Shown in pieces: positions 37,492 to 50,184 of a DNA stretch of 64,000 nucleotides; position 1 is the stretch's first letter, and each line of letters begins with the position of its first letter. Source of the DNA: Chryseobacterium nakagawai (GTDB lineage: Bacteria; Bacteroidota; Bacteroidia; Flavobacteriales; Weeksellaceae); assembly GCF_900637665.1 (NCBI RefSeq), contig NZ_LR134386.1, forward strand, positions 4,704,501 through 4,768,500, in the 5' to 3' direction. The translations under genes were made by a program, and so were the position numbers. The notes beneath the pieces were generated by a model. That model was not told the origin of the DNA. It ran no database searches and saw nothing but the letters and a program-made list of their open reading frames with translations.

Positions 37492-38193
37492 ATGCCTCAT
37501 ATTTTATTAGTAGAAGACGATGACAGACTTTCCAAGCTTATCACAAAAGGACTTCAGGAAGCTGAATTTGAAGTAAGTACAGCATATGATGGATCAACAG
37601 GACTAAAACTGGCATTGCAGAAAAATTATGACCTTGTAGTCACTGATATTGTTTTGCCTAAAAAAAGTGGTCTGGAGTTTTGTAATGAAATAAAAGCTCT
37701 GAAACCTAATCTTCCTGTCATAATGCTTACAGCTTTGGGCACTACGGACGACAAATTGGAAGGATTTGATGCCGGTGCCGACGATTATATGACCAAGCCT
37801 TTTGAAATGCGTGAATTGGTGGCGAGAATTAATGTCCTTCTAAAGCGTTTTTCACAACAGAGACAGCAAAAAGTTTTTGTCCTTAAATATGAAGGGATTG
37901 AAATGAATCTGGAACAGAAAACGGTAAGCAGAGATCATGTTCCTATCAAACTGACCCCTAAAGAATTCAATCTTCTCAAATTTATGATGGAAAACTCAGA
38001 GAAAGTACTTTCCAGAAGTGAAATTGCAGAAAAAGTATGGGAAACCCATTTTGATACCGGCACTAATTTTATTGATGTATACATCAACTATATCCGAAAA
38101 AAAATTGACAAAGATTTTGAGAATAAGCTGATCCATACCAAAGCAGGAATGGGTTTTATTCTTAAAAAAGGATATGAAGAACATCAACAATAA
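37492..38193 (+). CDS. OmpR/PhoB-family response regulator
   Basis: The protein has 233 residues. The receiver domain (1-120) has the acidic pocket EDDD (8-11), phosphoacceptor Asp52 (TDIVLP), a conserved Thr (MLTALG) and Lys (TKPFEMRELVARI). The winged-helix DNA-binding domain (about 130-228) has LTPKEFNLLKFM and FIDVYINYIRKKI. The kinase gene starts 10 bp downstream. OmpR-family proteins bind direct repeats at about 11-bp spacing. Arrays of that kind occur at the mgt and czc promoters 3.4 and 7 kb downstream, which makes this the nearest candidate regulator; that link is inferred. Confidence 0.93.
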   Translation: MPHILLVEDDDRLSKLITKGLQEAEFEVSTAYDGSTGLKLALQKNYDLVVTDIVLPKKSGLEFCNEIKALKPNLPVIMLTALGTTDDKLEGFDAGADDYMTKPFEMRELVARINVLLKRFSQQRQQKVFVLKYEGIEMNLEQKTVSRDHVPIKLTPKEFNLLKFMMENSEKVLSRSEIAEKVWETHFDTGTNFIDVYINYIRKKIDKDFENKLIHTKAGMGFILKKGYEEHQQ

Positions 38194-38203
38194 CTTATAA
38201 GGC

Positions 38204-39571
38204 ATGAAAATAAGAACCCGGCTTACCCTACTCTTTACCTTTGTCACGGCTATGTTGATGATATTTTACGGTATTGCAGTATACTATTCTTCGAGTGAAG
38301 CCAGGGAAGTTTCATTTTATGCCCAACTCAGAAACGAAGCGGTAGCGAAAGCCAATCTTTTTTTTCAAAGTACATTAAGTGAAAAGGAAATGCACCGTGT
38401 TTACAAGAATAACACAAAAACAATTAATGAAGTTCAGGTAGCCATCTATGATCCTGAGTTCAATCTGGTCTATCATGATGATTCAAAGGTAGACTTTGTT
38501 AAGGAAGATCCGAAAATGCTTTCCAGTATTCTAAAAAAGAAAGACATCAGTTTTTTCATTGATGATCTGCAGGCTATAGGAACTATCTATTCTCACAATG
38601 GAAAGGAATATTTGGTAACCGCTGCGGGGTACGATCAATATGGTTATAAATCAATCAGTCATCTTCTTACCATCAGTATTATTGCCTTCATTAGTATTTT
38701 AATATTAATTTATTTAGCCGGAATATTTCTTTCAAAAAAAGCATTGAACCCGCTAAGTGAAATGGTTCATCAAATAAAGAATATCACTGCCGGGAAATTA
38801 CAGTTACGCTTAAAAGCCACGGGTGAGAAAGATGAACTTAATGAACTGGCTGAAAATTTCAACGGAATGCTTGAGCGCCTGGAAAATTCGTTTGATGCTC
38901 AAAAACATTTTGTATCCAATATTTCACATGAACTGCGTACCCCACTATCTGCTATTATTACAGAACTGGAATTCTCTTCTGAAAAGGAACAGACCCAGGA
39001 AGAATATCAACAGACTATTCAATACGCTTTGGATGATGCCCGTAATATGGTAAAGTTATCCAATAGCCTGATGGACCTTGCCAAAGCCAGCTATGATCCT
39101 AATGAAATCAGTTTTTCAGAAGTACGATTGGATGAAATTTTATTAGAATCTTATTCGAAAATAATAAAGGAAAATACAGAATATAAAGTTTCATTGAATA
39201 TTGATAACGCTATAGAAGAACATCAGCTTATTGTGCAGGGAAATGAATATTTATTACAGGTCGCTTTTAATAACCTCATCGATAATGCCTGTAAATATTC
39301 GCCGTTCCATACCTGTCTCATTGATGTAAAAGTAAATACCGAAAATCTTCTGATCCGCTTTATCAATACAGGAATTACCATTTCACAGGAAGACTTACTC
39401 CATATTTTTGAACCTTTTTACAGAAGTGAAACCTCCAAACAGGAAAAGGGCCATGGAATTGGACTTTTCCTCACTGAGAAAATTATTCATCTTCATCACG
39501 CAATCCTCAAAGTAGCGTCTGAGAATAATGAGACTGTTTTCACAGTGATATTTGATATTAAAACAGCTTAA
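38204..39571 (+). CDS. Membrane sensor histidine kinase (HAMP-HisKA-HATPase)
   Basis: The protein has 455 residues. Two membrane helices (about 7-27 and 155-177) flank a periplasmic sensor of about 125 residues containing acidic patches (HDDSKVDFVKEDP). A HAMP domain follows, then the dimerisation/phosphoacceptor helix with His242 (SNISHELRTPLSAI). The ATPase domain has NLIDNACKYSP, LLHIFEPFY and GHGIGLFL. It is the cognate kinase of the upstream regulator. The signal is unknown; an acidic sensor surface would fit divalent cations as in PhoQ, but this is speculative. Confidence 0.92.
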   Translation: MKIRTRLTLLFTFVTAMLMIFYGIAVYYSSSEAREVSFYAQLRNEAVAKANLFFQSTLSEKEMHRVYKNNTKTINEVQVAIYDPEFNLVYHDDSKVDFVKEDPKMLSSILKKKDISFFIDDLQAIGTIYSHNGKEYLVTAAGYDQYGYKSISHLLTISIIAFISILILIYLAGIFLSKKALNPLSEMVHQIKNITAGKLQLRLKATGEKDELNELAENFNGMLERLENSFDAQKHFVSNISHELRTPLSAIITELEFSSEKEQTQEEYQQTIQYALDDARNMVKLSNSLMDLAKASYDPNEISFSEVRLDEILLESYSKIIKENTEYKVSLNIDNAIEEHQLIVQGNEYLLQVAFNNLIDNACKYSPFHTCLIDVKVNTENLLIRFINTGITISQEDLLHIFEPFYRSETSKQEKGHGIGLFLTEKIIHLHHAILKVASENNETVFTVIFDIKTA

Positions 39572-39782: not shown

Positions 39783-40634
39783 TTAATTATGAGAGGTAGC
39801 CGTTTTATTGAACATTGTCGTTCCTATACTGGCAGCAATTACACAGCTAATAGAAATCCACTGTAAAAAAGATAACTCTTCAGCAAGGAAAACTAATCCT
39901 GACAGGGCTGCAAATGCAGGCTCCAGGCTCATCAGGATACTGAACGTCTTTGCAGGAAGCTTTTTTAAAGCCATCATTTCTAAAGAAAACGGTAAAGCAC
40001 TTGATAAAATAGCGACTCCCAATCCTTTGACAAAAATAGTTGGTGTAATATTAAAGACCGCTCCATCCCATATTGTGAAAGGTATAATTACCAGACTGGC
40101 AAATAACATTCCTGTGGTTACGGCATCTTTTCCATCCATTATTTTAGAAACTTTTCCGCCCATTACAATATAAAGAGCCCAGAATATTCCAGCGAGAAAA
40201 GCTAATCCCAGCCCTAACAAATCTATATGATCGCTCTTCCAGGGAACAATAAGCAATATTCCTGCACAGGCTAATAGTGCCCAAACTACATCCAATAACT
40301 TACGGGATAATGCCAATGCTAGAAACAAAGGACCTGCAAACTCTACGGTTACGGCCAATCCTAGTGGAATTCTTTGAATCGCCATATAAAAAATAAGATT
40401 CATCGCAGCCAATCCCACCCCATACATTGCACAATACTTCCATTTTTGTGGAGTAAACTGTAAAAATTTAGGACGATTGATGATAGTAAGCAAAATAGCA
40501 GAAAGTACAATCCTCAAAGTAACGGTTCCAATAGCTCCAATTGCCGGAAAAAGCTGCTTGGCAATAGATGCTCCACCCTGTACACAGATAATGGCTAACA
40601 ATGTGGCAGGAATCGCTAAGTTTGAATTTTTCAT
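39783..40634 (-). CDS. EamA/DMT-superfamily transporter (RhtA-like)
   Basis: The protein has 283 residues with about ten hydrophobic helices in two EamA repeats. The LGLAVTVEFAGPLFLAL stretch and the KLPAKTFSILMSLEPAFAAL motif of the second repeat are typical of RhtA-like exporters of threonine or homoserine and other amino acids. It sits in the inner membrane. The substrate is not determined by sequence. It is monocistronic and divergent from the magnesium operon. Confidence 0.88.
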   Translation of the reverse strand: MKNSNLAIPATLLAIICVQGGASIAKQLFPAIGAIGTVTLRIVLSAILLTIINRPKFLQFTPQKWKYCAMYGVGLAAMNLIFYMAIQRIPLGLAVTVEFAGPLFLALALSRKLLDVVWALLACAGILLIVPWKSDHIDLLGLGLAFLAGIFWALYIVMGGKVSKIMDGKDAVTTGMLFASLVIIPFTIWDGAVFNITPTIFVKGLGVAILSSALPFSLEMMALKKLPAKTFSILMSLEPAFAALSGLVFLAEELSFLQWISISCVIAASIGTTMFNKTATSHN

Positions 40635-40883
40635 TTCTAAAATATATAATTTATAAAGACAACTTTTGGTTTGAAACCGGGAGATAAAACAAACTTTATT
40701 GTATAAAGCTGAATTATTGCCAAATGTATTGAAATTTTATCTTAAAAAATGGTTACAGATTCGAATTAAAGCTCTCATCTGTAACCATTGATAAACCTAC
40801 GAACAGTATCAATCTTAAATAGAACTCATTAAAAACATGATTCTGCTTATATTTTTTATTTTAAAAAGTACCATCATAATTTT
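40635..40883. other. Intergenic region between the EamA gene and the mgt promoter
   Basis: No gene is seen. ATGGTTACAGAT (40749-40760) and ATCTGTAACCAT (40777-40788) form a perfect 12-bp inverted repeat with a 16-base loop. It is a possible terminator or operator of unknown use. Confidence 0.5.
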
Positions 40884-40922
40884 CTCTAATATAATTCTAA
40901 TAACATTCTAAAGCTTTTCTAA
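40884..40922 (+). promoter_or_regulatory. Four-hexamer activator array of the mgtC-mgtA operon
   Basis: (C/T)TCTAA hexamers start at 40884 (CTCTAA), 40895, 40906 and 40917 (all TTCTAA), an exact 11-bp period, hence one helical face. The last lies 29 bp before the -7 box, start to start. The czc promoter has the same array at the same distance. The six-plus-five spacing equals that of enterobacterial PhoP boxes. Confidence 0.8.
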
Positions 40923-40945
40923 CAGGTGAAAAAAGCCAGTTCTAC

Positions 40946-40953
40946 TACTTTTG
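40946..40953 (+). promoter_or_regulatory. -7 box of the mgtC-mgtA operon
   Basis: TACTTTTG matches TAnnTTTG, with no TTG at -33; the hexamer array ends there instead. This suggests activator-dependent initiation. The transcript should start near 40958. Confidence 0.65.
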
Positions 40954-40973
40954 CAGTGTAAAAAATAAAGCAC

Positions 40974-41009
40974 ATGGACGCAGATCCTTACAGTTATTAT
41001 CAATCTTAA
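40974..41009 (+). CDS. Putative leader peptide MDADPYSYYQS upstream of mgtC
   Basis: An 11-codon frame runs from the first ATG of the predicted transcript to TAA at 41007-41009, 63 bp before mgtC. The peptide starts with acidic residues and a proline (MDADP) and then has three Tyr. Enterobacterial mgtA is preceded by the MgtL leader, whose acidic/proline N-terminus (EPDPTP) destabilises ribosomes at low magnesium. The resemblance is in position, size and composition only. Translation is unproven, and chance occurrence of such a short frame is possible. Confidence 0.4.
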   Translation: MDADPYSYYQS

Positions 41010-41053
41010 AAGCTTTAGTTGTACTCACTTTTCCCGTACAGCTTTATAAGCTT
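41007..41053 (+). promoter_or_regulatory. Possible attenuator hairpins between leader ORF and mgtC
   Basis: AAAGCT and GTAC (41008-41023) pair with GTAC and AGCTTT (about 41035-41046), with a 6-base bulge. A further AAGCTTT copy near 41049-41055 offers a competing partner. Such alternative pairing would suit ribosome-controlled attenuation; the fold has not been computed. Confidence 0.35.
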
Positions 41054-41072
41054 TATAAAAAAAGGAAAAGTT

Positions 41073-41771
41073 ATGAATACATTCGAATTTACTCTTCGTC
41101 TTTTCACGGCATTTGCTTTGGGTGCCAGCATAGGTTTTGAAAGACAATGGCGTCAAAAAAGCGCCGGTCTCCGAACCAATACTCTGGTATGCCTTGGCTC
41201 CGCAGCATTTGTTCTTCTCTCTATCCGGATCGGTGGTGATGCCACAGGCAGAATAGCTTCTTATATCGTCAGTGGTATTGGCTTTTTAGGAGGTGGAGTT
41301 ATCATGAAAGATGGACTTACCGTAAGAGGTCTTAATACCGCTGCCACCATCTGGTGCTCTGCATCAGTAGGAGCACTCTCCGCATTAGGACTTCCTTTGG
41401 AAGCTGCTATTACCAGTGGTTTTATTATCCTCACCCATCTTATTCTCCGACCATTGGGAGTACAATTAGGGAACAATATCAGCAGCAGAAATCACTACAC
41501 CGAATATCTACTCAGCATCAAATGCAAAAGTGAGGTAGAAAATCATATCCGGGTACAACTCATGCAATCATTAAGTGGAAATGATAAAGTACTACTGAAA
41601 TCTCTTACCAGCGATGATAACGGTGTCCCTGAAAATGCCATTATCACGGCAGAAGTTCATTCTTCTACACCACAAGACAGTTTTATGGAAAAAACCGCCA
41701 GCAGACTTACCATTGAAGATAAAGTCATCAAGGTAAGCTGGGAAATTATAGGTACTGAAAATGATTTATAA
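41073..41771 (+). CDS. mgtC: MgtC/SapB family membrane protein
   Basis: The protein has 232 residues from the ATG at 41073, preceded by AAAGGAAAAG. The frame extends upstream to 41019, but those residues are atypical. An N-terminal MgtC domain has four to five helices (ASIGFERQWRQKSAGLRTNTLV split across helices, then GIGFLGGGVIMKDG). A soluble C-terminal ACT-like domain follows. MgtC proteins aid survival at low magnesium and inhibit F-ATPase in Salmonella. It is the first main gene of an operon with mgtA (11 bp), the same pairing as the enterobacterial mgtCB operon. Confidence 0.88.
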   Translation: MNTFEFTLRLFTAFALGASIGFERQWRQKSAGLRTNTLVCLGSAAFVLLSIRIGGDATGRIASYIVSGIGFLGGGVIMKDGLTVRGLNTAATIWCSASVGALSALGLPLEAAITSGFIILTHLILRPLGVQLGNNISSRNHYTEYLLSIKCKSEVENHIRVQLMQSLSGNDKVLLKSLTSDDNGVPENAIITAEVHSSTPQDSFMEKTASRLTIEDKVIKVSWEIIGTENDL

Positions 41772-41782
41772 AAATTAAAGCC

Positions 41783-44455
41783 ATGTTAAAAAAATCTTCC
41801 AATAAAAATATCAACTCAGCCGCTCTTGTTAAATTGAAAGAAGCCGCTTCAGAGAACGAAAAAATGGTTTACGCTATGCTGGAAACTTCAGAAGAAGGCC
41901 TTAGCGAAAACACAGTGAAAGACCGTTTGAAAATTTACGGTAAAAATGAAATTGCTACTCAAAAAGCCCCCTCATGGCTGAAGCAGTTTGCTCATTCTTT
42001 CTTTAATCCCTTTAATTATATATTGGCGTGTATTGCTGTAATTTCTTTATTTATTGATGTAATTCTCATTCCTGAAGGAGAGAAAGATCTAAGTACAAGT
42101 ATTATTATTTCAGTAATGTTGTTGTTCAGTACTGTTTTAAGATTTATTCAGGAATTTCGGAGTAATAAGGCAGCAGAAGCATTGAAAAAAATGGTAAAAA
42201 CCAGCTGTCTTACCAAAAGGAAATTCAAAGAAAGTGAAGAAATAGAAATCACTGAAATAGTTCCCGGAGATATCGTGATTCTTTCTGCCGGAGATATGGT
42301 TCCTGCCGATTGCAGAATTTTGAAAAGCAAAGATCTTTTCATCAGTGAGTCTATTCTCACAGGGGAAGCATTACCTGTTGAAAAAAATGCATTTCCTATC
42401 CGTGATGCCAAAAACAGGAACCCACTTACCCTTCAAAACATATGTTTCATGGGAACCAATGTAGTTAGTGGATCAGCTACGGTTGTGGTTGTTAACACCA
42501 GTATTTTCACTTATTTCGGAAGCATCAGCAGAAGCCTTGTTTCCAAAAGGCCTGAAACCGCATTTGATATCGGAGTCAACAAAGTAAGCTTTTTACTGAT
42601 TCGGTTTATGCTGGTCATGACTCCTGTCATTTTCCTTATCAATGGATTCGTGAAAGGAGACTGGATGCAGGCACTCTTATTCGCCATTGCAGTGGCAGTA
42701 GGACTTACTCCTGAAATGCTGCCTATGATTGTTACCGCTAACCTTGCCAAAGGTGCTGTAAATATGAGTAAGAAAAAAGTAATCGTTAAAAGATTGAATG
42801 CCATCCAGAATATCGGCGCTATGGATATTCTCTGTACGGATAAAACAGGAACCCTTACCCTTGATAAAATCGTTCTGGAAACTCACCTCAACGTGCGTGG
42901 TCTTGATGATGATGAGGTTTTGAAATGGGCTTACCTCAACAGTTTTCATCAAACCGGCTTAAAAAACCTGCTGGATCAGGCTGTTCTGGATCATGCAGAA
43001 GTCCACAATCTCATGAAAGCTGATGAACTCTATCTGAAAGTAGACGAAATTCCTTTTGATTTCGAAAGAAGAAGAATGTCTGTCATTCTGAATACCTCAA
43101 AAGGAAAACACCTTATGATCTCAAAAGGAGCGGTAGAGGAAATGCTGTCTTTGTGTACATATGCTTTAGATCCGGGTGATGACCACAGCCTTCATATAGA
43201 GAATGACAATATTATTCCGTTAGATGACCTTATGAAGGAAAAAATCATCAGAATGTCTGAAAAGCTCAATGCAGAAGGGCTTCGTGTCTTACTGGTTGCC
43301 ATCAGAGAATTTGAAGGAGATCATCCACTCAATTATTCTGTTGCAGATGAAAGTCACCTCATCCTTACCGGTTTTATTGGATTTCTTGATCCCGCTAAAC
43401 CTTCTGCAGAGCCAAGTATCAAAGCCCTGCATAAATTAGGGGTTGAAGTAAAAGTAATCACCGGAGATAATGATATTGTTGCGAAAAAAATATGTCATGA
43501 TGTAGGAATTCCCATCAACACCATCATGCTTGGTGATGAACTGGAGAATATGAGTGATGAAGAACTCAGCAAGGACATGGATTTATATTCCGTTTTTGCC
43601 AAGGTAAGCCCATTACAAAAGCAACGCATTGTAAAAATATTAAGATCCAAAGGTCATACTGTAGGATTTATGGGTGACGGAATCAATGATGCAGCAGCCA
43701 TTAAAGAAGCAGACGTTGGAATTTCTGTCGATACCGGAGCTGATATAGCCAAAGAAAGTGCAGATATCATTTTGCTCGAAAAAGACTTAATGGTACTCAG
43801 AAGTGGAGTTATTTATGGCAGAAGAACATTCGGGAATATTATTAAATATATAAAAATGACGGCCAGCAGTAATTTTGGAAATATGTTCAGTATGATTGGT
43901 GCCAGTGCATTCCTGCCATTTCTGCCAATGCTGCCGCTGCAAATTCTGACTCAAAATCTGTTGTATGATATTTCACAATCCTCTATTCCCTGGGATACGA
44001 TGGATAAAGATTTTCTGGAACAACCCAAAAAATGGGAAGCTGACAGTATTAAAAAATTCATGCTTTATATTGGTCCTTTGAGTTCCATTTTTGATTATAT
44101 GACGTTTGCTGTAATGTTTTTTATTTTTAAAGCCAATACACCAGAGCATCAGAGTTTATTCCAGACCGGATGGTTTGTAGAAGGACTGTTGTCCCAAACT
44201 TTGATTGTTCATATTATCAGAACCAAAAAGATTCCATTTATCCAAAGCTGGGCTGCTGCACCGGTTGTTGCCCTAACGAGCTTAATCATGTTGATTGGAA
44301 TCCTTATTCCTTTCACCCCATTGGCAGGATATCTGAAAATGCAGCCATTGCCTTTAAGCTATTTCCCTTATCTGATAGGAATTCTTACAGGATATTGTAT
44401 CCTTACCCAATTTGTGAAACAATGGTTCATTAAAAAATTCGGACAATGGCTATAA
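41783..44455 (+). CDS. mgtA: Magnesium-translocating P-type ATPase MgtA (P3B)
   Basis: The protein has 890 residues, full length. The phosphorylation site DKTGT has Asp353. The subgroup signature GLTPEMLPMIVTANLA lies in the membrane segment before it; TGEALPVEK, KVITGDN and GDGINDAAAIKEADVGISV complete the P-type set. P3B ATPases import magnesium when it is scarce, at the cost of ATP. It lies 11 bp after mgtC, and both are controlled by the upstream hexamer array and perhaps by the leader peptide. The downstream gap holds a small hairpin and then the czc promoter. Confidence 0.95.
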   Translation: MLKKSSNKNINSAALVKLKEAASENEKMVYAMLETSEEGLSENTVKDRLKIYGKNEIATQKAPSWLKQFAHSFFNPFNYILACIAVISLFIDVILIPEGEKDLSTSIIISVMLLFSTVLRFIQEFRSNKAAEALKKMVKTSCLTKRKFKESEEIEITEIVPGDIVILSAGDMVPADCRILKSKDLFISESILTGEALPVEKNAFPIRDAKNRNPLTLQNICFMGTNVVSGSATVVVVNTSIFTYFGSISRSLVSKRPETAFDIGVNKVSFLLIRFMLVMTPVIFLINGFVKGDWMQALLFAIAVAVGLTPEMLPMIVTANLAKGAVNMSKKKVIVKRLNAIQNIGAMDILCTDKTGTLTLDKIVLETHLNVRGLDDDEVLKWAYLNSFHQTGLKNLLDQAVLDHAEVHNLMKADELYLKVDEIPFDFERRRMSVILNTSKGKHLMISKGAVEEMLSLCTYALDPGDDHSLHIENDNIIPLDDLMKEKIIRMSEKLNAEGLRVLLVAIREFEGDHPLNYSVADESHLILTGFIGFLDPAKPSAEPSIKALHKLGVEVKVITGDNDIVAKKICHDVGIPINTIMLGDELENMSDEELSKDMDLYSVFAKVSPLQKQRIVKILRSKGHTVGFMGDGINDAAAIKEADVGISVDTGADIAKESADIILLEKDLMVLRSGVIYGRRTFGNIIKYIKMTASSNFGNMFSMIGASAFLPFLPMLPLQILTQNLLYDISQSSIPWDTMDKDFLEQPKKWEADSIKKFMLYIGPLSSIFDYMTFAVMFFIFKANTPEHQSLFQTGWFVEGLLSQTLIVHIIRTKKIPFIQSWAAAPVVALTSLIMLIGILIPFTPLAGYLKMQPLPLSYFPYLIGILTGYCILTQFVKQWFIKKFGQWL

Positions 44456-44475
44456 TTCCTCAGAAATACCATCCT

Positions 44476-44514
44476 TTCTAATGGTATTCTAATAGCATTC
44501 TAAAGGTTCTCTAA
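44476..44514 (+). promoter_or_regulatory. Four-hexamer activator array of the czc-like operon
   Basis: Hexamers start at 44476, 44487, 44498 (TTCTAA) and 44509 (CTCTAA), again an exact 11-bp period. The array lies 29 bp from the -7 box as in the mgt promoter. The linkers are similar too: ATTCTAATA-CATTCTAAAG is shared with one base changed. It lies 21 bp after the mgtA stop. Confidence 0.8.
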
Positions 44515-44537
44515 CCGGCTATCAGAAAGGATAGAAA

Positions 44538-44545
44538 TACTTTTG
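44538..44545 (+). promoter_or_regulatory. -7 box of the czc-like operon
   Basis: TACTTTTG is identical to the mgt operon -7 box, again without a TTG -33. The 5' leader is about 95 bases and contains no ATG. Confidence 0.65.
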
Positions 44546-44646
44546 CAACGGCAAAAAACAAGCATTTAAGGTATTTTAAATAAATATCACACTGTATTGA
44601 TATAAAAAGAAAATTAGAATTAAATTAGTGGTTATAAACATCTTAT

Positions 44647-45750
44647 ATGAGAAAAGCAGTATTCACAATAGTACTTTTGACATTTATTACCTCTTGTAAA
44701 AATCCCAAAAGTGAAGATTCTCAGGATCAGGATCTTCTGGTAAAAGGAGAAAATGTAATCGTCCCTGAAAACAACCCAGTATTCAAAAAAATAAAAACAG
44801 AAATCGTTTCTGAGCAGGAACATAGCGACGGAATCGTTTCAGCAGGAACCATTCAGGCTATTCCCAACCATTATGCTGAAATTGCCAGCCCCTTTTCCGG
44901 AAGAATTACAAAATCATTCATTCAGCTTGGACAAAATGTTTCAGCAAACAGCCCTCTCTTTGAAATCCTTTCCTCTGATTATTTTTCAGTTCAGAAAGAT
45001 TATACAGATGCCCTGAATGATGTACAGCTCGCAGAGAAAAATTACAGACGTCAGCAGGATCTGGTAAAACATGGAGTCGGGATTCAGAAAGAACTTGACG
45101 AGGCAGAAACTGATTTCAAAAATAAAAAAACATCCCTTTCCAATGCTTCTTCTGCATTGAAAGTTTATAACAGCAAAGGCGGAGGTATCGGTAGCCCCCT
45201 TATTGTAAGAGCCCCAATTAACGGAGAAATTATTTCCAATAAAATTGTCAACGGCCAATTTCTAAAAAGTGATGCAGACCCTGTCATCATCATTGCAGAA
45301 TTATCCAAAGTTTGGATTTCCGGAGATGTAAAGGAAAAAGATATCCGTTTTGTCAATATCGGAGATCATGTTTCGGTAAAAGTAAGTGCTTATCCGGACA
45401 GAAATATCACTGGAAAAGTGTATCACATCAATGAAGTCGTAGATGAAAATACCCGAAGTATAAAAGTCCTTATCGAATGTGATAATCCGGACAGAAAACT
45501 CAAACCCGGTATGTATGCGACTGTCAATTTCGCTACGACTCCTCAAAAAACAGTTATGATTCCGATCAGTGCCCTGATGCAGCAGGACAGTTCTCAATAT
45601 GTGTGGATCAAAACAGGCAAGAATCAATTTGCCAAACGTTCGGTAACCACCGGAGAAGCGGATCAGAAAATGATCAGAATTACCTCCGGATTAAAAGTGG
45701 GAGACACCATCATGACCGAGGGTGGAATTTATATGCTGGATGCGAAATAA
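44647..45750 (+). CDS. RND efflux periplasmic adaptor (CzcB/CusB type), lipoprotein
   Basis: The protein has 367 residues. The lipobox ITSC (Cys17) anchors it in the inner membrane. The membrane-fusion layout is barrel-sandwich halves (EIASPFSGRITK and IVRAPINGEIISN), a short alpha hairpin (about 115-170) and beta-barrel (VWISGDVKEKDI). A C-terminal domain follows, with the VKVGDTIMTEGG end. No His/Met-rich metal-binding N-terminus is visible. It links the RND pump to the TolC-like channel; the operon order is adaptor, pump, channel. Confidence 0.9.
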   Translation: MRKAVFTIVLLTFITSCKNPKSEDSQDQDLLVKGENVIVPENNPVFKKIKTEIVSEQEHSDGIVSAGTIQAIPNHYAEIASPFSGRITKSFIQLGQNVSANSPLFEILSSDYFSVQKDYTDALNDVQLAEKNYRRQQDLVKHGVGIQKELDEAETDFKNKKTSLSNASSALKVYNSKGGGIGSPLIVRAPINGEIISNKIVNGQFLKSDADPVIIIAELSKVWISGDVKEKDIRFVNIGDHVSVKVSAYPDRNITGKVYHINEVVDENTRSIKVLIECDNPDRKLKPGMYATVNFATTPQKTVMIPISALMQQDSSQYVWIKTGKNQFAKRSVTTGEADQKMIRITSGLKVGDTIMTEGGIYMLDAK

Positions 45751-45815: not shown

Positions 45816-48800
45816 ATGAAAAAACTTTTGACAATCTCTATACAGAAGAGGTGGCTGATGTTGGCACTCTTCCTTTTACTGGGGTTCTTTGGTTATTATT
45901 CCTGGACCAAATTATCCGTAGAAGCTTATCCTGACATCGCTGATGTAACGTCGCAGGTGGTTACCCAGGTTCCCGGGCTGGCTGCTGAAGAAGTAGAACA
46001 ACAAATTACCATTCCTTTGGAAAGGGCTCTTAATGGGCTGCCTGGAATGCATGTTATGCGAAGCAAAAGTACCTTTGGACTCTCCATAATTACCATGGTT
46101 TTTGATGATGGGATAGACGACTATTGGGCGAGACAACGTATTCAGGAGAGGCTTACAGATGTTACTCTTCCTTATGGCGCACAGCCTGGTCTTGATCCTC
46201 TTACCTCTCCTGTTGGCGAAGTGTACCGTTATATTATTGAAAGTAATAATCATAGTTTGCGCGAACTTACAGATTTACAAAAATTTGTAATCATTCCACG
46301 TATCAAGCAGGTTTCCGGGATTGCAGATGTGACCAATTTTGGTGGAATTACTACCCAATTTCAGGTGGAATTAGACCCTCATAAACTTGAACAGTATGGT
46401 CTTTCATTATCAGAAGTTACCGAAACCATTTCAAAAAATAATGTGAGCGCCGGAGGAAGTATGCTTCCCCGTGGAAACTTAGCGTATGTGATTCGGGGAA
46501 TAGGTCTTGTAAAAGATTTAAATGACCTTGGAAAAATTGTAGTAAAAACTGAAAACGGGGTTCCGGTATTTCTGAATGATGTAGGAACATTGAAATACGG
46601 AAATCTGGAACGAAAAGGAATTCTGGGATATACAGACAGAAAACGAAACTATCCTGAAAGTGTAGAAGGAATTGTTCTCTTATTAAGAGGTCAAAACCCA
46701 TCGCAAGTATTGGAAGGTGTTCATGAGGCGATTGATGAATTAAACAATGAAACGCTTCCTCCCGGTGTAAAAATTCACCCTTTCCTTGACAGAACAGACC
46801 TTGTAAGTACTACTCTTCACACGGTTTCCCATACCCTTACTGAAGGAATTGTACTCGTTATTATTGTCCTGATTGTATTCCTGGGAAGCTGGCGAGGTGC
46901 TTTATTGGTCGCTATTACCATTCCGCTTTCTTTATTATTTGCATTTATTTTAATGCATTTTACCAATATTCCTGCTAACCTTCTTTCGCTGGGAGCTATT
47001 GACTTCGGGATTATTGTAGACGGAGCCATTGTAATGCTTGAAACTATTCTGAAAAAAAGGGAAGAGAATCCTGAAGAAGCATTAGAAGAGAAAACGATTA
47101 CCCAAAGAGTAATTGAAGTAGCAAAACCTATCTTCTTTTCTACCATCATTATTATCACAGCCTATCTTCCACTATTCGCCTTCGAAAGAGTAGAGAAAAA
47201 GCTGTTTACTCCGATGGCATTTACAGTAGGATATGCTTTACTGGGGGCTCTTGCTGTTGCATTACTCCTTATTCCAGGTCTGGCTTATGTGATCTATCGG
47301 AAACCACAAAAAATATATCACAACAAATGGCTGGAAAAAATAAGTGCAGCCTATGGAAAAAGAATCGAAAAAATAATGCTAACCCCTAAAAAAGTAATGA
47401 TCCCTGTAACCATCGTCTTATTATCAGCAGGAGTGCTTTCTTATACTGTAGGAAAAGACTTCCTTCCGGAGCTGGATGAAGGTTCTATTTGGCTACAGGT
47501 ACAGTTACCTCCGGGTATTTCCCTCGCCAAAGCAAAAGAAATGAGCGATACCTTACGTGCCAGAACATTAAAACATTCGGAAATTACTTATATGATGGTT
47601 CAGGCTGGACGGAATGATGACGGAACCGATCCATGGACCGCTTCTCACTTTGAAGTTTCTGTAGGAATAAAACCTTACGATCAATGGCCATCCGGGAAAA
47701 CCAAAGCAGACCTCATTAAAGAATTAGCTGCTGATTACAAAGAAATGCCAGGGTTTACAGTAGGTTTCTCACAACCGATGATTGACGGGGTAATGGATAA
47801 AATTTCCGGGGCACACAGTGAACTTGTTGTAAAAGTATATGGAGAAGATTTCAAAGAAACCAGAAGAATCGCAGAAAATATATTATCTACCTTAAACAAA
47901 ATTCCGGGATCTGCTGACCTTGCTATTGACCAGGAACCTCCTCTACCTCAGTTGCAGATTATTGCAGACAGAGATAAGATTGCTCAATATGGATTAAACG
48001 TGGCTGATGTGGCTGATCTTATTGAAGTCGCTTTAGGTGGAAAAGCCATCTCGCAAATCTTTATCGGTAATAAAGTGTATGATATTTCCTGCCGTTACAC
48101 AGAAGACAGCCGTGATACTCCTGATAAAATAGGAAACCTGATGCTCACCTCAGCTTCAGGGGCAAAAATTCCATTATCTCAGGTTGCTGAAGTAAAATTA
48201 AGTACCGGGGAAAGTACCATCACCCGGGAAATGAACAAGAGGCATCTTACCGTTAAACTGAATTTAAGAGGAACAGATCTTTCTTCTTTCCTGAAAAAGG
48301 CTCAGGACAAGATTGAAAAAGACATCAAATATGACCATGAAAAGTATCAGATCAAATGGGGCGGACAGTTTGAAAATCAAAACAGGGCTTATTCCAGATT
48401 GGCATTTATTGTTCCTTTGGCATTGGCTATTATGTTCTTGTTATTGTATGGAGCGTTTGGAGATTTCAAACAGGCATTGGTATTGATGTCTATTGTTCCG
48501 CTGGCATTATTTGGAGGAATGCTTGCTCTTAATATACGTGGAATGTCTTTGAACGTATCCTCTGCTGTAGGATTCATTGCCCTTTTCGGAGTCGCTATTC
48601 AGAATGGTGTGATTATGATTTCCCATATCAATGACCTCCGTAAAAAAGGATACGATTTGAAACTTGCTGTCATTAAAGGTGCAAAGGATCGTTTCAGACC
48701 GGTATTGATGACCGCAACAGTAGCAGTAATCGGATTATTCCCCGCCTCACTGGCAACCGGAATCGGTTCGGATGTACAACGACCGTTGGCTACTGTCATT

Positions 48801-48926
48801 GTCTATGGATTAATGTTCTCTACTATTTTAACACTATTCGTACTTCCTGCTATCTATTTTATGGCAGAACGTCGCAACGAAAAACAAAATTTAGAATCAG
48901 ATGAAGCACTTATATATGAAAATTAG
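45816..48926 (+). CDS. Heavy-metal RND efflux pump (CzcA/CusA family)
   Basis: The protein has 1036 residues with twelve membrane helices and two large periplasmic loops, as in HME-RND pumps. The fourth helix carries DFGIIVDGAIVMLE with D396, D402 and E409. These correspond by spacing to the proton-relay residues of CzcA (Asp, Asp, Glu) rather than to the CusA pattern. This favours Zn/Co/Cd/Ni over Cu/Ag export. The usual EN at the end of the motif reads ET. Its stop overlaps the TolC-like gene. Specificity is inferred. Confidence 0.93.
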   Translation: MKKLLTISIQKRWLMLALFLLLGFFGYYSWTKLSVEAYPDIADVTSQVVTQVPGLAAEEVEQQITIPLERALNGLPGMHVMRSKSTFGLSIITMVFDDGIDDYWARQRIQERLTDVTLPYGAQPGLDPLTSPVGEVYRYIIESNNHSLRELTDLQKFVIIPRIKQVSGIADVTNFGGITTQFQVELDPHKLEQYGLSLSEVTETISKNNVSAGGSMLPRGNLAYVIRGIGLVKDLNDLGKIVVKTENGVPVFLNDVGTLKYGNLERKGILGYTDRKRNYPESVEGIVLLLRGQNPSQVLEGVHEAIDELNNETLPPGVKIHPFLDRTDLVSTTLHTVSHTLTEGIVLVIIVLIVFLGSWRGALLVAITIPLSLLFAFILMHFTNIPANLLSLGAIDFGIIVDGAIVMLETILKKREENPEEALEEKTITQRVIEVAKPIFFSTIIIITAYLPLFAFERVEKKLFTPMAFTVGYALLGALAVALLLIPGLAYVIYRKPQKIYHNKWLEKISAAYGKRIEKIMLTPKKVMIPVTIVLLSAGVLSYTVGKDFLPELDEGSIWLQVQLPPGISLAKAKEMSDTLRARTLKHSEITYMMVQAGRNDDGTDPWTASHFEVSVGIKPYDQWPSGKTKADLIKELAADYKEMPGFTVGFSQPMIDGVMDKISGAHSELVVKVYGEDFKETRRIAENILSTLNKIPGSADLAIDQEPPLPQLQIIADRDKIAQYGLNVADVADLIEVALGGKAISQIFIGNKVYDISCRYTEDSRDTPDKIGNLMLTSASGAKIPLSQVAEVKLSTGESTITREMNKRHLTVKLNLRGTDLSSFLKKAQDKIEKDIKYDHEKYQIKWGGQFENQNRAYSRLAFIVPLALAIMFLLLYGAFGDFKQALVLMSIVPLALFGGMLALNIRGMSLNVSSAVGFIALFGVAIQNGVIMISHINDLRKKGYDLKLAVIKGAKDRFRPVLMTATVAVIGLFPASLATGIGSDVQRPLATVIVYGLMFSTILTLFVLPAIYFMAERRNEKQNLESDEALIYEN

Positions 48927-50184
48927 AGTATACTTTATCATAGGAGTGACCTTATTACTCAGTATGACGAATAAGGTACAGGCACAGGAAAAAGAAGTTC
49001 TGAATTTTGAAGAATATCTAAGCCTTGTCGGAAAGAAAAATCTGGGATATGCCGCTCAAAAGTACAATATAGGCATGGCAGAAGCTTCCATTCAGACAGC
49101 AAGTATGTTTCCGGATCCGCAATTGGATCTAGAAACGACCAATAATGGGATTAAAGAAAATATGGGACACGTATATGGAGCTTCCCTTGGCTGGACCCTT
49201 GAACTGGGAGGCAAAAGAAAAGCAAGAGTAAACCTAGCTAAGGATCAGTCTGAATTAAGCAAAATTCAATTACAGGATTTTTTCAGAAATCTTCGTGCTG
49301 ATGCTACTTTAGGTTATTTGGAAGCATTAAAATCTAAAGCGATCCTCGAAGTACAGCAGGATTCTTATAAAAATATTCTACAGCTTGCTAAATCTGACAG
49401 CATACGTTATCGCCTGGGAACAATATCTCTGGTCACTTCAAAACAGAGTAAATTGGAGGCTGCTTCCCTTCTCAATGAGATATATCAGGCAGAAAGTGCA
49501 GAGCAACAAGCAATCACAGGATTAGCTGTATTTCTCAGCGATGGCAAAATAACAGATAGAGATGTTGCCGGGGACTTTAATGCTTTCAATAGAGATTTTA
49601 ATATTGATGATCTGATCATTCAGGCATTAAATACAAGAGCAGACCTACTGGCTGCCAAACAGAATACGCAAGTAGCCAAAAGCCAAATCAATCTTGAAAA
49701 AGCAAACCGAAAAATAGATCTTGGTATCAATGCCGGGGCAGAACGTCACACTGAAGCTACGAATGAAATAGCTCCCTCTCCAACTGTAAATGCAGTAAAA
49801 TTAGGGCTCAGTATTCCTTTGAAGTTTTCCAACAGAAGAAATGCAGGCGTAAAAATAGCAGAAATGGCTCACTCTCAGGCAGCACTTGAATATCATCAGA
49901 TTGAACAGGGAATACAGGCAGAAGTCATGCAGGCTTATCAACAATATATGGCCACCCAGAAACAGGTAAAACAATTTCATAACGGAATGCTTACTGAAGC
50001 GAAAAGTATACTGGATGGCATCACCTACAGTTACAAAAGGGGAGAAAGCTCTATTCTCGAAGTACTGAATGCTCAAAGAACCTACAATGGAGTAAGAAAA
50101 GATTATTATCAGGCCCTTGCAGATAATGCAACAGCTTTGATCGAGCTGGAACGCAGAGCTGGAATCTGGGATATTAATTTTTAA
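48901..50184 (+). CDS. TolC/CzcC-family outer-membrane efflux channel
   Basis: The protein has 427 residues. A signal peptide (to about 29, KVQAQ) is followed by two OEP repeats with long coiled-coil helices, ending in SILEVLNAQRTYNGVRKDYYQALAD and ELERRAGIW. It forms the outer-membrane duct of the tripartite metal pump. The start at 48901 overlaps the pump gene by 26 bp; a second ATG at 48916 would overlap by 11 bp and gives a cleaner signal. It is the last gene of the operon; the terminator is about 200 bp downstream. Confidence 0.9.
   Translation: MKHLYMKIRVYFIIGVTLLLSMTNKVQAQEKEVLNFEEYLSLVGKKNLGYAAQKYNIGMAEASIQTASMFPDPQLDLETTNNGIKENMGHVYGASLGWTLELGGKRKARVNLAKDQSELSKIQLQDFFRNLRADATLGYLEALKSKAILEVQQDSYKNILQLAKSDSIRYRLGTISLVTSKQSKLEAASLLNEIYQAESAEQQAITGLAVFLSDGKITDRDVAGDFNAFNRDFNIDDLIIQALNTRADLLAAKQNTQVAKSQINLEKANRKIDLGINAGAERHTEATNEIAPSPTVNAVKLGLSIPLKFSNRRNAGVKIAEMAHSQAALEYHQIEQGIQAEVMQAYQQYMATQKQVKQFHNGMLTEAKSILDGITYSYKRGESSILEVLNAQRTYNGVRKDYYQALADNATALIELERRAGIWDINF

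Follow-up and report, generated by a model that had tools for sequence, protein, structure and literature searches.

A four-hexamer promoter array and a candidate leader peptide at the magnesium import and metal efflux operons of Chryseobacterium nakagawai

Organization of the locus

The locus described here lies in a 64,000-nt window of contig NZ_LR134386.1 of Chryseobacterium nakagawai, to which all coordinates refer unless they carry the prefix of a fetched locus (L and three digits) or of the organism's own genome (G000:C1; 5.6 Mb, one contig). Two operons, mgtC-mgtA for magnesium import and czcBAC for metal efflux, are each preceded by an array of four YTCTAA hexamers that recur every 11 bp. 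A two-component system, consisting of a response regulator and a sensor histidine kinase, is situated upstream of the first array (37492-39571), and a short leader open reading frame (ORF) is found between this array and mgtC (Table 1).

Table 1. Coordinates of the features at the mgtC-mgtA and czcBAC operons, and of the third array in the same genome.
Feature	Position	Strand	Remarks
Response regulator (receiver and OmpR/PhoB-type winged helix), proposed array reader	37492..38193	+	Pfam Response_reg, Trans_reg_C; co-occurrence with array
Sensor histidine kinase, partner of the regulator	38204..39571	+	Putative extracytoplasmic PAS-like (PDC-like) sensor domain
Array 1	40884..40922	+	CTCTAA-N5-TTCTAA-N5-TTCTAA-N5-TTCTAA; hexamer starts 40884, 40895, 40906, 40917; kept in relatives
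-7 box of mgtC promoter, TACTTTTG	40946..40953	+	Start 29 bp past last hexamer start
Leader ORF	40974..41009	+	MDADPYSYYQS-stop; proposed MgtL-like ribosome-destabilizing peptide
Stem A	41009..41054	+	Hairpin starting at leader stop codon; RNAalifold, clade A; equivalent stem covaries in clade B
Stem A loop and 5' strand of competing stem B, ACTTTTCC	41027..41034	+	Complementary to 41064-41071
3' strand of stem B, GGAAAAGT	41064..41071	+	Just before mgtC ATG
mgtC (MgtC/SapB family, C-terminal domain)	41073..41771	+	Pfam MgtC 123.5 bits, MgtC_SapB_C
mgtA, Mg2+ P-type ATPase	41783..44455	+	TIGR01524 1249 bits, cut-off 610.75 exceeded
Array 2	44476..44514	+	TTCTAA-N5-TTCTAA-N5-TTCTAA-N5-CTCTAA; hexamer starts 44476, 44487, 44498, 44509
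-7 box of czcB promoter, TACTTTTG	44538..44545	+	Start 29 bp past last hexamer start
czcB-like adaptor	44647..45750	+	Pfam HlyD_D23; TIGR01730 above cut-off
czcA-like RND pump with DFGIIVDGAIVMLE motif	45816..48926	+	TIGR00914 (CusA/CzcA) 942.4 bits, cut-off 701.45 exceeded
czcC-like outer-membrane factor	48901..50184	+	Pfam OEP
Third array with paralogous regulator-kinase pair and porin-like gene	L038:8870-10304 = G000:C1:428870-430304

The array and its spacing to the -7 box are conserved

The original prediction for this stretch had placed the hexamers and both TACTTTTG boxes at the positions listed, and had called the linkers of the two arrays similar. Re-reading of the coordinates agreed on all of these points, the linkers being similar without being identical. 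Exact matches to three consecutive hexamers occur four times in the window, all within arrays 1 and 2. When up to 3 mismatches were allowed, 9 matches were obtained, compared with a mean of 2.15 in shuffled sequences, where 9 was reached in 1 of 100.

The last hexamer ends 23 bp before the -7 box. The identical 29-bp spacing from start to start, noted for the two promoters, turned out to be general: among 90 distinct arrays, located in the scanned loci by their hexamers alone, the distance was exactly 29 bp in 81, while 3 had no TAnnTTTG within 60 bp and 6 had it at another distance. A search of the genome of C. nakagawai for three hexamers and TAnnTTTG at N22-24 returned 3 places (reversed control 0), namely the two window arrays and G000:C1:428881. 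The search of related genomes that had been suggested as a check, for three hexamers with the box, gave 35 places in 29 of 148 genomes of the family, and a sample of the phylum gave 17 places in 14 of 392 genomes; the reversed control was 0 in both. The combination of array and box is not due to chance. Across Bacteroidota the array stands mostly ahead of Mg2+ or metal-efflux genes, and the taxa in which it was seen are Chryseobacterium, Elizabethkingia, Pedobacter, Sphingobacterium, Chitinophagaceae and Phocaeicola.

In 45 mgtC promoters (the promoter records cover boxes at 27-31 bp) the mean information per base was 1.88 bits in the hexamers and 1.04 in the linkers, as opposed to 0.42 in both the spacer and the 22 upstream bases. 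This is the reverse of drifting hexamers between conserved flanks, the pattern named beforehand as speaking against the array. The absence of a TTG -33 box also held, with a TTG 17-23 bp ahead of the box in 0 of the 86 promoters with spacing 29. The predicted array promoters have the layout of class II activation, in which the activator site lies beside or over an absent -35/-33 element at a fixed spacing. As predicted, the hexamer is unrelated to that of PhoP: both arrays consist of YTCTAA, and (T/G)GTTTA is not matched.

An intrinsic terminator in the promoter spacer was considered and rejected, since the spacers of promoters close behind an upstream gene were not clearly more stable (28 vs 55 spacers, p 0.12). 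An inverted repeat followed by a T-rich stretch was noted between the last hexamer and the box in L083, L199, L204 and L205; overall this was not significant.

Two variant arrays were observed in the genome. At G000:C1:228107-228165 (L154, L175) three YTTTAA-like hexamers, with 3 mismatches, have the same 11-bp period and box spacing, and are located upstream of a gene followed by ORFs that by eye resemble ExbD/TonB; this array is perhaps the operator of another regulator. At G000:C1:3986681-3986726 (L039), on the minus strand and upstream of a membrane-protein ORF, three perfect hexamers are followed by a box at a distance of just 17 bp.

The neighbouring response regulator as probable reader of the array

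The regulator upstream of array 1 belongs to the OmpR family, both domains scoring above their cut-offs (Response_reg 102.5 bits, Trans_reg_C 84 bits). When its presence (matches at E 1e-70 or better) was compared with that of the exact array in the 148 family genomes, both were present in 26 and both absent from 109, with 10 carrying the regulator alone and 3 the array alone; the Fisher p of 1.1e-17 is too small and serves as a guide only, because the genomes are related. A relaxed search of the 10 regulator-only genomes revealed an array with one or two mismatches and the box at 29 in 6 of them and a weaker array in 2. In a test of the flanks of 80 named loci, grouped by their best match to either of two regulators of C. 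nakagawai, the one in the window and a paralogue described below, an array with box was present at 43 of the 51 loci with a match of at least 55%, and at 0 of 29 below 55%. The recognition helix, aligned for 18 chosen regulators, reads N-[FY]-IDVYI in 13 of the 14 that are linked to arrays (the exception being L117) and N-V in 4 of 4 others. Two observations count against the assignment: the last 2 of the 10 regulator-only genomes have no array, even an imperfect one, and no array was found in the flank at 8 of the 51 close-regulator loci. Three of these 8 are from Elizabethkingia, other stretches of which have arrays further away. Judged from these comparisons, the array is very probably the operator of the local regulator.

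The paralogue, 51% identical, is encoded at the third array, which lies between this divergently transcribed gene and that of a 442-residue porin-like protein (no Pfam match; ExtI porin model 46 bits, below the cut-off of 150). The same trio of array, paralogous regulator-kinase pair and porin-like gene recurs in several relatives. Another OmpR-family regulator such as this paralogue could in principle read all three arrays, the local regulator having some other target, and cross-binding is conceivable as hexamers and spacing are the same at the paralogue's array and the recognition helices of the two regulators are nearly identical. In the relatives, however, the mgt/czc arrays go with the first regulator and the porin arrays with the second, and the latter arrays differ in their TAATTTTG box and in a first hexamer that has diverged. 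We consider a paralogue reading all three arrays quite improbable, and retain the local regulator as the reader at mgtC and czcB.

Target operons

An array with box was present in 78 of 120 scanned loci, many of which are close relatives. Downstream of it were mgtC/mgtA together with czc genes at 43 loci, czc genes only at 13, mgt genes only at 9, a porin-like gene with the paralogous regulator at 9, and other genes at 4. A second array between mgtA and czcB was found at 5 of the 19 loci that carry both genes, the window included. The remaining 14 do not have it, and in most of these 19 loci one array therefore serves both genes. The earlier proposal that one OmpR-type activator controls Mg2+ import and metal efflux was partly supported: comparison points to a likely reader that is shared, but the second array of the window is not a general feature.

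Another pairing of importer and exporter was seen in L080, where the operon consists of an OprB porin, an MntP-type manganese exporter and mgtA, and the L205 operon contains mgtC and mgtE pieces. In L077, czc genes and mgtE come after the same two-component system, and no array was found there. mgtA is missing from several Chryseobacterium loci (L053, L055, L056, L057, L060, L061, L066, L069-L072); their mgtC ORF, at about 160 codons, is shorter and immediately precedes czcB, and the leader ORF is retained.

A conserved leader ORF ahead of mgtC

The original prediction did not extend to the regulator and kinase in the window, to the third array with its paralogous regulator, or to the leader peptide ORF and the predicted two-state RNA ahead of mgtC. 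The leader ATG is 28 bases past the box start in the window and 24-34 bases past it in general. The leaders have the motif M-[DE]-x-D-[PS] and are usually 10-11 codons long. A set of 42 mgtC leaders was compiled from Chryseobacterium, Elizabethkingia and two other genera. All 42 have Asp or Glu as residue 2 and 41 have Asp as residue 4, and residue 5 is either Pro (32 leaders) or Ser (10). The length is 11 codons in 30 leaders, 10 in 9, 12 in 2 and 9 in 1. Four leaders were set aside from this set, L165, which has the motif, and L083, L199 and L205, which do not.

MgtL is characterized by acidic residues 2 and 4 in a leader ORF that precedes Mg2+-transport genes, and an M[DE]x[DE] leader was found in 41 of 46 distinct mgtC-first promoters. 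The other array promoters gave 0 of 21 (czcB-first), 0 of 10 (porin), 0 of 4 (mgtA-first), 0 of 1 (czcC-first) and 1 of 7 (unassigned), and as background the motif is present in 126 of the 22244 short ORFs that start with ATG in the loci fetched. When 393 genomes from the same taxonomic order were searched for two hexamers, box and ATGGANNNNGA, 26 gave a match (control 0); at the 20 of these 26 places that were readable, all 20 leaders were 11 codons long, with position 5 occupied by Pro or Ser, the search itself having required ATGGANNNNGA. In the genome of C. nakagawai, box and ATGGANNNNGA occur together at 12 places (control 3), and apart from the mgtC leader only one of them gives an ORF of 7-25 codons, MEPELEY (L211).

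Several points weigh against a conserved acidic leader. The mgtC-first leaders of L042 (MDTGP), L083 (MDKPP), L156, L199 and L205 (MDAGP) do not have the motif, and where mgtA is the first gene after the array, in loci of the Phocaeicola type, such a leader is absent. Moreover, all 26 genomes of the order search belong to the genus of the window, the leaders from Elizabethkingia and one further genus coming from separate searches.

The leader ORF might not be a sensor at all, serving mere translation coupling or being neutral, with its conservation due to the RNA fold. Leader translation is deduced from sequence, and the ORF partly adjoins stem A. Start sites in Bacteroidota are often functional without a Shine-Dalgarno sequence, and masking of the mgtC start may accordingly matter less. 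On the other hand, third codon positions vary (GAC/GAT/GAA/GAG at codon 2, CCT/CCG/CCC/TCC/TCA at codon 5) while Asp/Glu-x-Asp-Pro/Ser is kept, lengths change by whole codons, and the 20 readable places of the independent order search (with its requirement for ATGGANNNNGA) point in the same direction. A leader without a sensor role appears unlikely to us, and we regard the ORF as probably translated and regulatory.

Predicted alternative RNA structures between leader and mgtC

The loop of stem A can pair with the bases just before mgtC, giving the competing stem B. Structure alignments used 13, 13 and 20 of 32 listed leaders, from a list that leaves out L083, L199, L205, L165, L172 and L052. 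For stem A, 10 cells were changed on both sides in 13 clade-B leaders compared with 3.0 in shuffles (a value reached in 0 of 500), and 86% of cells were paired, as against 23-45% in slid versions. The strands of stem B are ACTTTTCC/GGAAAAGT in clade A, and ACCTTTCTGT/ACAGAAAGGT and variants in clade B. The best pairing of loop to mgtC start exceeded 95% of shuffles in 36 of 46 leaders, the helix not always being the same.

Folding was also modelled with a ribosome on the leader, for 39 leaders (L083, L199, L205, L165 and L052 left out). The 14 nt ahead of mgtC were predicted to be unpaired with a probability of 0.57 without ribosome, 0.63 with the ribosome at codon 4-5 and 0.38 with the ribosome at the stop codon. 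The difference between the free and the stop state was 0.194, compared with -0.017 (standard deviation 0.123, 123 shuffles) when the middle was shuffled.

Against a general two-state switch, stem B is without covariation support in clade B, where its score is equalled in 92 of 500 shuffles and exceeded by a one-column slide, and the ribosome-dependent difference in folding is slight or lacking in L042, L069, L072, L074 and distant genera. The core of stem B hardly varies; conservation and the differing sequences of the two clades are what argue for it.

No Rfam Mg2+ riboswitch was found in 40700-44700, the 4 matches up to E 5 all being snoRNA families below their gathering scores, and a known Mg2+ riboswitch was rejected as an explanation on this ground.

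A proposed two-layer circuit and its signal

From the array and its spacing, the co-occurrence with the regulator, the conserved leader and the covarying hairpin we infer DNA binding, activation, signals, ribosome drop-off and a reason for pairing import with export, in the following scheme. With the kinase active, regulator molecules would occupy the four hexamers in a head-to-tail arrangement, on one face of the DNA in 11-bp steps, and the copy nearest the start would lie against the site where a -33 element is missing and recruit RNA polymerase by class II activation. This first layer would activate both mgtC-mgtA and czcBAC. A second, translational layer would act on mgtC-mgtA through the 11-codon leader beginning with M-D-x-D-P. 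When cytoplasmic Mg2+ is ample, the ribosome would read the leader to its stop codon and cover the 5' arm of stem A, so that stem B masks the mgtC start region. When Mg2+ is scarce, ribosomes would drop off at the acidic and proline codons, stem A would form and the mgtC start region would be free. The czcB promoter, which has no such leader, would be subject to the first layer only. The likely signal would be low Mg2+, outside the cell through the kinase and inside through the leader. Metal efflux would belong to the same programme probably because Mg2+ importers admit transition metals, which harm more when Mg2+ is scarce. On balance we favour this two-layer picture.

Alternatively, the system could be of the CzcRS/CusRS type, with an excess of a heavy metal (Zn/Cd/Co/Ni or Cu) activating the kinase, the array turning on efflux, and mgtC-mgtA being carried along to refill displaced Mg2+. 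The nearest NCBIfam models, which are of the copper/silver/zinc type, fit a metal signal and weigh against low Mg2+. Both proteins score below the cut-offs, the regulator with 217.7 bits against cztR_silR_copR (cut-off 279.2) and the kinase with 207.3 bits against the CzcS/SilS/CopS subfamily (cut-off 292.55). PhoP and PhoQ models are not among the best 25 of the 96 and 76 families matching regulator and kinase, respectively. A fold search with the whole kinase gave only kinase cores among the matches listed. With the sensor domain modelled alone, the top match by VIA was PhoQ, tied with WalK, whereas the CusS and CzcS sensor domains were among the weak matches by Foldseek; CzcS (5gpo) is in the Foldseek list and not among the best 50 VIA matches, which excludes nothing. 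A heavy-metal signal is also suggested by the CusA/CzcA family of the pump and by the 13 of 78 array-bearing loci with czc and no mgt genes downstream. Set against this are mgtC as the usual first gene, the 9 loci with mgt genes only and a leader that resembles Mg2+-sensing ones.

The protein models alone would favour metals. We nevertheless prefer low Mg2+ because the leader shares acidic residues 2 and 4 with MgtL and its predicted output is masking, as for MgtQ. By this analogy low Mg2+ seems the more plausible main signal, and a heavy-metal system rather unlikely.

Comparison with known Mg2+ and metal systems

The PhoP box, (T/G)GTTTA-N5-(T/G)GTTTA, shares several properties with the array: hexamer direct repeats five bases apart, an OmpR-family regulator, mgtA and mgtC as targets, a position over or beside the -35 region with class II activation at mgtA, and long 5' leaders (PMC3335776). 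It lies 12 nt from the -10 element at mgtA and 21-23 nt from it at ompX and rstA (PMC3335776), distances to be compared with the 23 bp between the last repeat and the -7 box. The array differs in its unrelated YTCTAA hexamer, in having four repeats instead of two, and in its Bacteroidota -7 box; unlike in enterobacterial PhoPQ, czc efflux is part of the predicted regulon and the regulator is nearest to heavy-metal models. As the hexamer differs from (T/G)GTTTA, the array is not a PhoP box, though it would work like one. The CusRS/CzcRS systems share the nearest subfamilies of regulator and kinase and the efflux genes nearby; the window system departs from them by scores below the curated cut-offs, Mg2+ transporters in first place and a direct-repeat operator.

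In E. coli MgtL, the destabilizing EPDP sequence has Glu2 and Asp4, both required for regulation, and low Mg2+ favours drop-off (PMC11282234). As described for the mgtA leader (PMC11282234, PMC11552253), MgtL is likewise encoded by a short ORF in the 5' leader of an operon for Mg2+ transport and has acidic residues 2 and 4, and 32 of the 42 leaders share its proline at position 5 as well. The Chryseobacterium leader differs in its usual length of 10-11 codons, its Tyr/Gln/Asn/Ser-rich end and its position ahead of mgtC, and its proposed output is start-site masking instead of the Rho termination of MgtL. Salmonella MgtQ, from an ORF between mgtC and mgtB, has Asp2 and Glu5, which promote freeing of a masked ribosome-binding site (PMC8092293). 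It thus shares a tiny ORF with acidic codons and alternative hairpins that mask or free the ribosome-binding site of the next gene, and is distinguished by its intergenic position, by acidic codons 2 and 5, and by other sequences and hairpins (PMC8092293). The M-box Mg2+ riboswitch, including the pe20 leader of Mycobacterium tuberculosis with its upstream ORF, likewise combines a Mg2+-related leader, an upstream ORF and start-site masking (PMC12810186); the Chryseobacterium leader has no Rfam match, and control is proposed to operate via a peptide ORF and not via an aptamer.

OmpR-type direct-repeat activation combined with a ribosome-destabilizing leader would, by analogy, be a known principle realized here with other parts and in another phylum. 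The iron tables of PMC10434189 contain mgtA and czc genes of Bacteroides, and no Bacteroidota report of such an array, or of a leader peptide at mgt genes, was found in searches of the open PMC library. Only tentatively do we go further and suggest a complete two-layer Mg2+ circuit in Bacteroidota that evolved independently of PhoPQ-MgtL-MgtQ, with an unrelated two-component system on a four-hexamer operator and an acidic/Pro leader peptide gating an mgtC RNA switch in response to cytoplasmic Mg2+, sensed by ribosome drop-off, joining Mg2+ import to transition-metal export. If so, the combination of a direct-repeat activator box with a ribosome-destabilizing leader peptide for the control of Mg2+ arose at least twice, in distant phyla and from different parts, and nascent-peptide drop-off sensing would be a general solution beyond enterobacteria. 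Bacteroidota would also gain a testable Mg2+ regulator, and the co-regulation of Mg2+ import with transition-metal export would suggest a physiological reason.

Neighbouring genes

A gene for an EamA-type transporter (RhtA-like, below cut-off; 39783-40634, minus strand) lies between the kinase gene and array 1 in the window and in most Chryseobacterium loci, and does not seem to belong to the regulon. In L198 (7989-9633), a regulator-kinase pair and an array are located directly ahead of a gene with DUF5982 and Omp85 domains.

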